From: a virus
Length of the DNA stretch: 29,459 nt
IMG/VR virus record: IMGVR_UViG_3300033994_002805
Location: 1 to 29,459 of that record
Direction: 5' to 3' (one strand)
Part shown: one piece after another, positions 10,013-21,509 of the stretch
How the letters are laid out: each line of letters opens with the position of its first letter
Numbering within the stretch: position 1 is the stretch's first letter
Notes under the pieces: model-generated
What the model saw: the letters and a program-made list of their open reading frames with translations, nothing else
What the model was told of the DNA's origin: nothing
Databases searched by the model: none
Made by a program: the position numbers and the translations under genes

Positions 10013-11953
<1,941 letters not shown>

Positions 11954-11957
<4 letters not shown>

Positions 11958-12310
11958 ATTTCTATTTTGTTTAACATTGATTCCATTCCTTCTTTGACTG
12001 TATTCCAAGTGTTGAGGTACTCTTGAATGGTTTCGTACTCACCTTGATTTTGATAAAACTTTTCTTTTGAGATGCGGTTTAGGGCATTTGCAAAGTTACT
12101 GTAGTAACCTAATACTTTTTCAGTTTCTTTACCGGATGCTTTACCGCCTCCAAATCCTCTTGTAGCAACAGACTTTTCCATAACTGTAAAGTTTGTAGCA
12201 TCCTTTACAATATAAAAAGGCTCCATTGCAGGATCTTTAATTGTACATAAGTTTGATTGTGTGTCATTTTCGTCCCGAGCCGGACGACCTCTGCGTTTTG
12301 TTTCTTGCAT
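11954..12310 (-). CDS. Hypothetical protein with AT-hook-like N-terminus (118 aa)
   Basis: The N-terminus MQETKRRGRPARDEND holds an RGRP core, the minor-groove-binding element of AT hooks. The rest forms a compact domain: MEPFYIVKDATNFTVMEK, KVLGYYSNFANALNRISKEK, then a helical tail, TIQEYLNTWNTVKEGMESM. I recall proteins with the GYYSNFxNALNxISKE pattern in T4-like marine phages, but the function is unknown. It is first in the operon before groES and overlaps it by 4 nt. A CGTATATTA promoter-like box lies upstream. Confidence 0.72.
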
Positions 12311-15892: not shown

Positions 15893-16441
15893 TTATTTAA
15901 AAAATTGGGTAAGGTCGGGTCTGAAGTAATTAATGTTCTTCATAACTTTGCGATCGCGTGTTCTATAGACGATAAAATACTTACCAACCTGTTCATAGTG
16001 ACATGGTTCCTTTTGCTCTGCGGAACGTACTCTAACGGTCTCTTGTGCCTCTTCTTCACTAGTGCAAGCTTTGCTAAGATTTGACGCCTGTACTTCTTGA
16101 TACGCGGGCCATACTTTATCCTTAAGACCATGTAGCATAGCACCGTTACCCAGTGAAACATAGGTAATGTCACATAGAGCATCAAGCACTTCAACAATAT
16201 TGCCCGTTTCACACGCATGCTTATATTCCTCGAGTTCTTCCAAAATGAAATTGTATACAAACATCCACTCCTTCTCCTCGGGAATGACCGGGTCATAATT
16301 ATTAGGCTTTCCCATAATTGCGTTGAATTCCTCAACTTCTGATACAAACGGAACGTAGGTTTGTTCGGGAATATCTTCCTTAACTGCCTTTTTAGCTAGG
16401 AAAGGAAGAATCTTGTTTTTATAGGCTTTAAATAGTCTCAT
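15893..16441 (-). CDS. MazG/PRA-PH-like nucleotide pyrophosphohydrolase
   Basis: The 182-residue protein has the acidic helix pattern of all-alpha NTP pyrophosphatases: VYNFILEELEEYKHACETGN, then VEVLDALCDITYVSLGNGAM, giving E-x2-E and D-x2-D metal ligands, followed by QEVQASNLSKAC. Such enzymes split (d)NTPs to monophosphates. The last 45 residues (KYFIVYRTRDRKVMKNINYF) form an extra basic tail. It overlaps FolE by 4 nt (ATGA), linking it to deazaguanine synthesis; trimming the dGTP or dUTP pool is a plausible role but inferred. Base composition is slightly richer in GC than its neighbours. Confidence 0.75.
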   Translation of the reverse strand: MRLFKAYKNKILPFLAKKAVKEDIPEQTYVPFVSEVEEFNAIMGKPNNYDPVIPEEKEWMFVYNFILEELEEYKHACETGNIVEVLDALCDITYVSLGNGAMLHGLKDKVWPAYQEVQASNLSKACTSEEEAQETVRVRSAEQKEPCHYEQVGKYFIVYRTRDRKVMKNINYFRPDLTQFFK

Positions 16442-17136
16442 ATCTGGTGTCCTCCGTTATTGATTTTTAATGAATCAAAGAATTCTTTACGTGCTTGATT
16501 ATCATTATCCATAAACACACCTGATGCTTTTGTAGTTACCATTGAAGCACCTTGGTGTTTAACACCTCTACAAGATACACAATTATGTGTTGCTACTGTA
16601 GTAACGATTACACCACGATTGCCTTCACATACTTTGCTTACTGCTTGGTGAATGGCTGCAGTCAATTGCTCTTGAATAGCACCTCGACGACCAAAATGTT
16701 CTACAATACGGTTCAATTTAGATAAACCAATAACACGTCCACCTTCTCCAACTACATAACCAACGTGAACTACTCCTCCAATTGTTTGGTGGTGGTGTGA
16801 ACACATTGAAGTTAAAGGAATGTTGCGCTCAATAACAATACCATCGTATCCGTCTGATGGGAATGAAGTAATATCTGACATTGCATTATATCGACCTGCA
16901 AATAAATCAAATACATAGGCTTTTGCTACACGGCGTGGAGTATCTTCTGAATTGGGGTCGTTTCGCCAATCAACACCTAAAGCATCTAGAAATTTACCAT
17001 AAGCTTCTTCTGCTTCATCTACCATTGCCCATTTTTCTTTTTCGGTAAGGGGAAAACCAGGTGCAACTCCATTTGCAAAACCTGTTTGCACACATTCTAA
17101 ATCGTTGTGCTGTTTTTTTCGATTGTTTTCTGACAT
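16438..17136 (-). CDS. folE: GTP cyclohydrolase I
   Basis: The 232-residue protein has DTPRRVAKAYVFDLFAGRY, SMCSHHHQTIGGVVHVGYV (zinc Cys and substrate His residues), RVIGLSKLNRIVEHFGRRG, QEQLTAAI and VATHNCVSCRGVKHQGASM, which carries the second zinc cysteine. It converts GTP to dihydroneopterin triphosphate, the entry point to folate and 7-deazaguanines. The first 45 residues are an extra N-terminal extension. With QueD, QueE and QueC nearby it most likely feeds preQ0 synthesis, though folate for the phage thymidylate synthase is also possible. A CGTACATTTA box lies upstream. Confidence 0.96.
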   Translation of the reverse strand: MSENNRKKQHNDLECVQTGFANGVAPGFPLTEKEKWAMVDEAEEAYGKFLDALGVDWRNDPNSEDTPRRVAKAYVFDLFAGRYNAMSDITSFPSDGYDGIVIERNIPLTSMCSHHHQTIGGVVHVGYVVGEGGRVIGLSKLNRIVEHFGRRGAIQEQLTAAIHQAVSKVCEGNRGVIVTTVATHNCVSCRGVKHQGASMVTTKASGVFMDNDNQARKEFFDSLKINNGGHQI

Positions 17137-17186: not shown

Positions 17187-17681
17187 TTAGAGTGCATAAA
17201 TGTAATCTAAATTACGCTCTTTTTTATCGTTATCCATCCCATAACCTACTACCCATTCATCTTGAATCATAAAACCATAATAGTGATAGTATTCTGGTAG
17301 GGGTGAAACATCTCTGGTTAATAGGGTAATCATCTTAAGTGATTCAGGGTTTTGAGTATTTAAATGTTCTAAAATTCTATTTAAAGTATTTCCAGTATCA
17401 TAAAAATCATCTACAACATACACATGTTTTCCTTCAATATTTGTTTCAATATCTTTTGTAATGTGAACTACACCTTGATCTTGACCGTTATATGATTTAG
17501 CTCGTATAAAATCAACTTCAACATTAGTTGACATATTTTTTACTAAATCACTAAAAAACATAAAACCACCATTCAACACACAAATCATTACAACTTCGTC
17601 ATCAGCAGTATGTTTAAAATCAATAGCATGAGCCATTTCTATTACTTTATCTTGGATTTGTTCAGATGTAAATAAAATCAT
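17187..17681 (-). CDS. hpt: Hypoxanthine-type phosphoribosyltransferase
   Basis: The 164-residue protein has the type I PRTase fold: VVMICVLNGGFMFFSDLVK, VDFIRAKSYNG, the PRPP-binding loop HVYVVDDFYDTGNTLNRILE, and EWVVGYGMDNDKKERNLDYI at the C-terminus as in bacterial Hpt. It would join a purine base to PRPP, making IMP or GMP. It overlaps the queE stop by 4 nt (ATGA), so it is coupled to the deazaguanine pathway. That raises the possibility of guanine salvage after base exchange in DNA, or use of a deazapurine base. Neither can be told from sequence. Closest alternative: xanthine or guanine PRTase. Confidence 0.9.
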   Translation of the reverse strand: MILFTSEQIQDKVIEMAHAIDFKHTADDEVVMICVLNGGFMFFSDLVKNMSTNVEVDFIRAKSYNGQDQGVVHITKDIETNIEGKHVYVVDDFYDTGNTLNRILEHLNTQNPESLKMITLLTRDVSPLPEYYHYYGFMIQDEWVVGYGMDNDKKERNLDYIYAL

Positions 17682-18460
17682 ACTCCTCGTTTTGTATCGA
17701 AGGCAATGATGTGGTCACGCCCTGTCATATTATAACCTTTTTCAGCACACATATCAAATACAATTGGATACATTTTAACAAGTTCCTCACGTGTATCACC
17801 TGCTGGCATGATGAATGTTTTGTGTTTTGGAATGTTAAGTGCTACTCTAAATGCTTCAATCTCAGCTAAATTTTCTTCAGTACCATCCCAAACTGGTTTG
17901 TAGTGATAATCGATATGGTATTCTAAAGTTTGCTTAATTGTGTCTAATTTTAGACGAAACTTATTGTGTTGGTCAATCATTTTTTGGTCCACAATCGCTC
18001 CTTGAGGCGTTTGAGCTCCCACAACGGGAATACTATTACCAAACTTAGGACTGAGCGAAATAAGATCAATAGGATAGTCAGTAGCGAGGAAATGACTACC
18101 TTCAGTCTCAATAGTAATGAGGATATCTCTTTCATTTGCAAAATGCGTTAGTTCGTTTACTAATTTTGGATGCATCGTAGGTGAACCTCCAGTTAACATC
18201 ATTTCTTTGATATGTGGATTTTCATCATAAATTTTGATGATGTCGTTAAAGGTAAACGTACCTTTTTCTGGGTGGATACTTGTATACCAAGAATCGCACC
18301 AACCACCTTCTCCAAAGTAGCAACGGTGAGTACAACCTGTTGTGCGAACTGCAATCGTTGGACGTCCAAAACGAGATCCCTCGCTTTGAACGCAACGATA
18401 TAATTCTACAATTGGTAAAACTTTGTTATAATCTTCAATTCTTCCTAGAGTAGATTCCAT
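17678..18460 (-). CDS. queE: 7-carboxy-7-deazaguanine synthase (radical SAM)
   Basis: The 260-residue protein begins with IVELYRCVQSEGSRFGRPTI, the QueE substrate loop, then RTTGCTHRCYFGEGGWCDSW. This gives a cysteine arrangement CX3CX7C rather than the standard CX3CX2C of radical SAM enzymes. MMLTGGSPTMH is the SAM-binding GGxP-like motif, and ITIETEGSHF and SLSPKFGNS are typical QueE segments. It converts 6-carboxytetrahydropterin to CDG using SAM and a 4Fe-4S cluster. It overlaps thioredoxin upstream by 16 nt and Hpt downstream by 4 nt, so all three are co-translated. Confidence 0.92.
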   Translation of the reverse strand: MESTLGRIEDYNKVLPIVELYRCVQSEGSRFGRPTIAVRTTGCTHRCYFGEGGWCDSWYTSIHPEKGTFTFNDIIKIYDENPHIKEMMLTGGSPTMHPKLVNELTHFANERDILITIETEGSHFLATDYPIDLISLSPKFGNSIPVVGAQTPQGAIVDQKMIDQHNKFRLKLDTIKQTLEYHIDYHYKPVWDGTEENLAEIEAFRVALNIPKHKTFIMPAGDTREELVKMYPIVFDMCAEKGYNMTGRDHIIAFDTKRGV

Positions 18461-18750: not shown

Positions 18751-19227
18751 TTATCCTTCATAAATACTAGAGTTATTGTCGTTCTCGAAACATTCTACTT
18801 TGATACATTTGCATCTTCCGGCGTCTGTATTGGCTAGAACTTCGTTAAATTTGTCAAATACCAACTTAGCACATGATTCTGCGCCCATTTTGTCCATTAC
18901 TCGAAGTGCGCATAAACCTTCCATCGCTGCCGATTCGAAAAAGTCTAAGTATGGATCGTCCTTCTCGATCAACAATGTGTGATCCCACATATAATTCATC
19001 CAAGATTTCAAACCATTTCCTACAGGTGCATCTTTAAAGCCTCCGTAATCAACAATCCAGTTCATATCGTCTAGTTGGTTTTCCTCTAGCGGTTCGTTTG
19101 AAGCAAACCATACTTTGAATTTCAAAGCATAACCATGTAGCAATTCACAATGTGAGTGAGATGCTCTCCATTGTCTAAGTGCTACTGAATAATTTTCAAA
19201 TAATTTGGTGCTAATATATCTACCCAT
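18751..19227 (-). CDS. queD: 6-carboxytetrahydropterin synthase
   Basis: The 158-residue protein carries QWRASHSHCELLHGYALKFK, with the His residues and Cys of the PTPS/QueD active site, VDYGGFKDAP (the usual DFGGLK-like motif), and YMWDHTLLIEKDDPY. It converts dihydroneopterin triphosphate from FolE to 6-carboxytetrahydropterin, the QueE substrate. It starts within the tail of a 44-residue gene (8-nt overlap). A related reading, 6-pyruvoyltetrahydropterin synthase, is less likely next to QueC and QueE. Confidence 0.9.
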   Translation of the reverse strand: MGRYISTKLFENYSVALRQWRASHSHCELLHGYALKFKVWFASNEPLEENQLDDMNWIVDYGGFKDAPVGNGLKSWMNYMWDHTLLIEKDDPYLDFFESAAMEGLCALRVMDKMGAESCAKLVFDKFNEVLANTDAGRCKCIKVECFENDNNSSIYEG

Positions 19228-20694: not shown

Positions 20695-20724
20695 AGAAAA
20701 ATATGGGCTCCAAATTAGAGCCCA
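20695..20724 (-). terminator. Terminator overlapping the dpdA-like stop codon
   Basis: The minus-strand stem TGGGCTC / GAGCCCA (7 bp) has loop TAATTTG and is followed by TATTTTTCTTTT. The stop codon TAA of the preceding gene forms the start of the loop. Confidence 0.85.
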
Positions 20725-21509
20725 TTTATTTTGCGAAACATTTCAACATTGTATTCTACAAGATCTTCGTTTACAAAGTCAATGCTTACGTCTTGGTATT
20801 TATTCATGTTTGCAATTGGTTTCATATGCAACCCCATTTTTGTATAAGGCATTTCACCGATTGCAGCCATAATTGGATTTGATGTATCAATTGATTCGAT
20901 ACAAGGGATGTTTTTATACATTCCAAATTCAATAGGGGAAGCAGTTCCAAGCAAATGTACTCGATCACCTGGTAGAAGTGTTTTGTTTTGCATAAATTGG
21001 GAAACAACCATATATCGTCCAATTGCTTTACCTAAATCTTTGTTTGGATGTGGACACATTTCATGATAGTATTCTGCACCATATGAAAATGCAATTTTCT
21101 TGTATCCAAAATCACGATATGCTTGTACGCATAATCCAGCTTCATAGGTTGATTTTGCTTGTACTACTGCTACTTTGGTTACTCCTTCAGGCAATTGTAC
21201 TTTAGACCATTGCTTTGCATTTCTAACTGAAGCAGCATAATCTTCCCATACATCTGGAACGATGAATTCATTTGGTTTAATTTCATTGATCCAATGCATT
21301 AAACGTTCTGTATCATATGCTTCACCCAGTTCATGGAGTGAATTATCCATTACAATATATCGACCCATTTTCTTGGATTCGTAGAAGAAATTGCGATATT
21401 CTTCATTTTCATCCATCAAGTGGGGCAATAAGTAATCATAGTCGTTAAACTCTCGACTTTTTTCTAAGAGGCAAAATGGTACCTCGTGGCTAATTTTTAT
21501 TTGTTTCAT
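20715..21509 (-). CDS. dpdA: DpdA-like DNA 7-deazaguanine transglycosylase (TGT superfamily)
   Basis: The 264-residue protein begins IKISHEVPFCLLEKSREFND and has RYIVMDNSLHELGEAYDTER, NEFIVPDVWEDYAASVR, KVAVVQAKSTYE, KKIAFSYGAEYYH and VHLLGTASPIEFGMYKN. The last resembles the glycine-rich HLLG/YLMG segment of the tRNA-guanine transglycosylase barrel, and the order fits phage DpdA as I remember it. DpdA swaps guanine in DNA for preQ0. The CxCxxC zinc motif of tRNA enzymes is absent, as expected for DNA-acting phage forms. Clustering with FolE, QueC, QueD and QueE supports the call. The start overlaps the upstream stop by 4 nt (ATGA). Confidence 0.7.
   Translation of the reverse strand: MKQIKISHEVPFCLLEKSREFNDYDYLLPHLMDENEEYRNFFYESKKMGRYIVMDNSLHELGEAYDTERLMHWINEIKPNEFIVPDVWEDYAASVRNAKQWSKVQLPEGVTKVAVVQAKSTYEAGLCVQAYRDFGYKKIAFSYGAEYYHEMCPHPNKDLGKAIGRYMVVSQFMQNKTLLPGDRVHLLGTASPIEFGMYKNIPCIESIDTSNPIMAAIGEMPYTKMGLHMKPIANMNKYQDVSIDFVNEDLVEYNVEMFRKINGL

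Follow-up and report, generated by a model that had tools for sequence, protein, structure and literature searches.

Genes at the queE locus

The DNA analysed here (the window, i.e. the whole stretch of 29,459 bases) is an IMG/VR virus record and represents a fragment. The queE gene is encoded on the minus strand, and its genomic partners folE, queD and queC are all present close by (Table 1). QueF was not seen within the window, a fragmentary record. The protein encoded at 20715-21509 belongs to PHROG 19058, for which no function is listed there. Its model is a TGT-type barrel, matching TGT at Z 17.6 and the DNA preQ0 insertase DpdA (7ui4) at Z 17.3, and by analogy we infer that it would put the modified base into DNA. 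Homologues of this protein (36-38%) are encoded by Campylobacter phages, where they are annotated as hypothetical; for these phages, a DpdA-independent insertion was considered in 2019 (PMC6884629).

Table 1. Features of the window in the region of queE
Feature	Coordinates	Strand	Basis or remark
MazG-like nucleotide pyrophosphohydrolase	15893..16441	-	phrog_671 7.9e-26
folE, GTP cyclohydrolase I	16438..17136	-	phrog_2197 1.2e-57; TIGR00063 2e-41
Hypoxanthine phosphoribosyltransferase	17187..17681	-	between folE and queE; TIGR01203 over cut-off
queE, 7-carboxy-7-deazaguanine synthase, 260 aa	17678..18460	-	stop 17678-17680; phrog_2076, TIGR03365, fold to 5th5
CX3CX7C cluster loop, GCTHRCYFGEGGWCDSW	18287..18337	-	QueE residues 42-58; within 18280-18345, marked in the first-pass annotation
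Codon of C55	18296-18298	-	
Seven residues between second and third cysteine, YFGEGGW	18299..18319	-	five extra residues lie here
Codon of C47	18320-18322	-	
Codon of C43	18332-18334	-	
Thioredoxin-like, 82 aa	18445..18693	-	TIGR01068 9.3e-23; overlaps queE start by 16 bases
queD-like 6-carboxytetrahydropterin synthase	18751..19227	-	variant Zn-site motif SHCELLHGY; phrog_2389 1.3e-30; PF01242
queC, 7-cyano-7-deazaguanine synthase, 291 aa	19389..20264	-	PF06508 7.8e-35; 76% to immuto QueC
DpdA-like guanine transglycosylase	20715..21509	-	34% to annotated DpdA of immuto; TGT/DpdA fold

Several further genes accompany the cluster. A thioredoxin-like gene similar to that overlapping queE was found in 71 of the 80 window-like viral loci. 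The hypoxanthine phosphoribosyltransferase perhaps recycles the guanine released by the transglycosylase. Two adjacent ORFs on the minus strand (10013-11659 and 11652-12008) resemble GroEL and GroES on reading of the sequence.

Identity of the QueE protein

PHROG 2076 (QueE-like radical SAM) matches the window QueE over its full length (E 3.1e-48, profile positions 7-247 of 247), and the protein scores over the cut-off of the Pfam Radical_SAM model. With the NCBIfam QueE models, values of about 1e-15 to 1e-6 were obtained, all far under the curated cut-offs. TIGR03365 (Bsubt_queE equivalog) gave 7.5e-15 and 55.1 bits against a cut-off of 206.1 bits, and TIGR04508 (queE_Cx14CxxC) gave 28.1 bits against 240 bits, the motif of the protein being CX3CX7C. 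The Q-x-E-G, downstream R, CD, GG and E/K motifs of other QueEs are present. Upon alignment with divergent QueEs, Q25, E27, R39, D56, G91, G92, E118 and K139 were invariant or nearly so; Q25, E27, R39, D56, K139 and R248 are among the other invariant residues in an alignment of 62 sequences (A3).

The AlphaFold model, calculated with 62 homologues as input, reached a pLDDT of 90.4, with lower certainty in the region of the cluster loop (block means of 73-80 for residues 41-70). In this model, the overall fold is clearly that of a QueE. The four best structure entries, with Z between 23.0 and 17.0, are all QueEs of B. subtilis, E. coli or B. multivorans. They are led by B. subtilis QueE (5th5; Z 23.0, 2.2 A, 216 residues), continue with E. 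coli QueE (Z 19.1) and B. multivorans QueE (Z 17.0), and are followed by the PFL-activating enzyme PFL-AE (15.0). The profile match to PHROG 2076 and the fold at Z 23.0 thus confirm the assignment as QueE made in the first-pass annotation. The gene product is a genuine QueE and probably a working CDG synthase of a tailed phage.

The CX3CX7C cluster loop

Translation of the minus-strand ORF confirms the motif CX3CX7C, with C43, C47 and C55 separated by three and seven residues, i.e. five residues more than in CX3CX2C between the second and third cysteine (C2 and C3), as initially read from the sequence. The B. subtilis-type QueE (TIGR03365; 5tgs/5th5) shares its pathway position and fold with the window protein but has a C2-C3 gap of two residues. 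The B. multivorans-type QueE (TIGR04508; 4njg) also has the QueE fold and a lengthened cluster loop; in this CX14CX2C type, however, the C1-C2 interval is the one that holds the additional residues (PMC4389238), so that the insertion site is indeed a different one, as had been pointed out. Altered ligand spacings are also found in other radical SAM enzymes, namely ThiC (CX2CX4C) and PhnJ (CX2CX21C) (PMC4389238).

All three cysteines are invariant in the 62 sequences of alignment A3, and C55 stands in the context WCD[ST], the same as in CX3CX2C QueEs. The three cluster ligands are therefore almost certainly C43, C47 and C55, as aligned here and as originally named. The first-pass annotation had allowed for another cysteine as ligand, an idea that lost its footing in the alignment because no other cysteine is conserved. 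The third ligand could in principle be C23, C238 or a non-cysteine residue, with C55 incidental and the motif not truly CX3CX7C. C23 precedes the motif and is found in many close relatives (38/62), but it is replaced by A or S in the other 24, while C238 is present in 29 sequences and replaced by V or A in 33. With C55 found throughout and in the context common to CX3CX2C QueEs, such an arrangement is extremely improbable.

In the simplest reading, the loop would be a tolerated glycine-rich bulge (GEGG) between ligands 2 and 3. C43, C47 and C55 would hold the SAM-binding [4Fe-4S] cluster, as their invariance and alignment suggest, and the five extra residues would bulge out, so that neither the CxxxC turn nor the WCDS segment downstream would be displaced.

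Distribution of the extended loop

The CX3CX7C spacing was found in 159 of 160 IMG/VR relatives, which are all that were readable, in two viral scans of 80 loci each; L160 and a few divergent or non-QueE loci were left out of this count. The search patterns of the second scan avoid the cluster loop, and its sample is therefore unbiased towards CX3CX7C. Since the 159 independent loci agree, the spacing is neither chance nor an assembly error, and a sequencing or assembly artefact is ruled out. The QueEs of Flavobacterium phage immuto and Cellulophaga phage phiST, both annotated as such, have the same spacing and are 65-67% identical to the window protein over 98% of its length. Both are encoded beside folE and queD, as in the window; immuto differs from it in that QueF is present and queC is located elsewhere. 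The initial view of the spacing as unusual or novel did not hold, because a large QueE clade carries it. In the literature searched, neither a published description of the CX3CX7C spacing nor a biochemical assay of any CX3CX7C QueE was found; the spacing may be mentioned in a QueE structure paper or in the 2023 phage 7-deazaguanine paper. The CX3CX7C QueE is thus a known enzyme with a loop variant that has apparently not been described before, in a large clade whose named members already carry the annotation QueE.

More distant phage QueEs lengthen the same gap. Six residues separate C2 and C3 in phi3:1, eight in Bacteroides phage BS162P1, 17 in CP220, 23 in HCTV-1 and 40 in phi-Grn1, where the assignment of C3 in the very long loops (X17 and X40) depends on the alignment. 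A gap of four was found in one viral contig pair, and the remaining distant phage QueEs have two. The proteins of Campylobacter CP220, Haloarcula HCTV-1, Cellulophaga phi3:1 and Vibrio phi-Grn1 share the lengthened gap with the window QueE, whereas their inserts differ in length and sequence and overall identity is 26-31%. Hence the C2-C3 site, as seen across the aligned sequences, is a recurrent place of variation in viruses.

A scan of genome contigs yielded 18 loci. Some are phage contigs within metagenome bins and have a phage DNA polymerase close by. The others are chromosomal loci of cultured bacteria (Cysteiniphilum, Facilibium, Fangia and related Thiotrichales), whose QueEs are 55-62% identical to that of the window and share its CTHRC motif, with CX3CX7C or CX3CX8C, the loop often being one residue longer than in the window. 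The chromosomal gene adjoins queD and usually a divergent queC. A DpdA-like gene was not detected in the cellular extended-loop loci examined. In nine genomes, no other convincing queE accompanies the extended-loop gene, and queC, tgt and queA are present in every one of them; queuosine synthesis there therefore apparently needs the extended-loop QueE. These genomes are good evidence that the variant functions in the making of queuosine. Within the order of G001, one of the genomes analysed, 13 of 33 genomes encode an extended-loop QueE.

In the tree, the whole CTHRC clade is united with a support of 100/99, and viral and cellular rows are interleaved. CP220, phi-Grn1, BS162P1 and further long branches are placed with little certainty, and for this reason no number of origins of the C2-C3 insertions (one or several) is claimed. 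A recent capture from a Bacteroidia host was considered and is unsupported: all 31 QueEs that were read from the class of the Algoriphagus-named bin G036 have CX3CX2C with a different motif. We regard the loop as a trait inherited within one QueE clade, common to Flavobacterium-type phages and Fastidiosibacteraceae-type bacteria, and not as peculiar to this phage.

Instead of the HGH zinc motif usual in QueD, the QueD of this clade has (S/T)HCxxLHGY, which follows an FRQW-like segment. There were 148 hits for this variant, in phage and bacterial loci with an extended-loop QueE (window 18751-19227, L005, L121, L105, L114 and others), so that two pathway enzymes are non-canonical together. No solved structure matched the variant QueD by sequence.

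Proposed pathway and alternative readings

By analogy to the characterised pathway, FolE, QueD, QueE and QueC, all the phage's own, would make preQ0 from GTP. The DpdA-like transglycosylase would then substitute this base for some guanines in the phage DNA, which might thereby escape host restriction. The window QueE thus probably feeds a 7-deazaguanine DNA modification; preQ0 is the probable product because the window has QueC. HCTV-1, CP220 and phi-Grn1, which are relatives of HVTV-1, Campylobacter phages and nt-1, encode QueEs in which C2 and C3 are 23, 17 and 40 residues apart. In the DNA of HVTV-1 and nt-1, 7-deazaguanines were measured, and for Campylobacter phages a high degree of modification with dADG was reported (PMC6884629). 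Host enzymes could account for part of these measured modifications.

Taken together, a real and probably active QueE would hold its cluster with C43, C47 and C55, act in a preQ0 route with DpdA-like insertion and carry a loop inherited within its clade, a reading to which we assign a probability of about 0.88. The final base is where another outcome deserves most attention: the product may be used as CDG or ADG, with the clade supplying different DNA bases depending on the phage, the window included. In phiST, with folE, queD and a CX3CX7C queE present, no match to QueC was found across the whole record, and CDG itself may therefore be the end product there; in addition, dADG was reported for Campylobacter phages (PMC6884629), which also encode the homologue of the DpdA-like protein. 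With QueC in the window pointing to preQ0, this outcome is unlikely here, though far from negligible.

A radical SAM enzyme that arose from QueE but has a different substrate or product, its longer loop reflecting the change, would account for a score far under every NCBIfam QueE cut-off (55 versus 206 bits) and for the conservation of a glycine-rich loop. Similarly low scores are, however, obtained with the Fastidiosibacteraceae QueEs, which are the only QueE of their genomes, and the fold nearest to QueE as well as folE, queD, queC and the DpdA-like gene nearby make this very unlikely. It is also doubtful, if less so, that the extended loop defines an undescribed QueE subfamily of phages and Fastidiosibacteraceae in which the bulge has its own task, such as docking another electron donor or adjusting SAM cleavage where hosts lack the usual flavodoxin; in the window, a thioredoxin-like gene overlaps queE.

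Implications

The window QueE represents neither a new enzyme nor a new pathway, but an ordinary, little-described variant of QueE. It indicates a second site at which insertions into this enzyme's radical SAM cluster loop are tolerated. Searches demanding CX3CX2C, as well as the NCBIfam QueE cut-offs, would miss a variant that is common in phages and in one bacterial family. The natural C2-C3 lengths of 2, 4, 6, 7, 8, 17, 23 and 40 residues provide material on what fixes the third cluster ligand.
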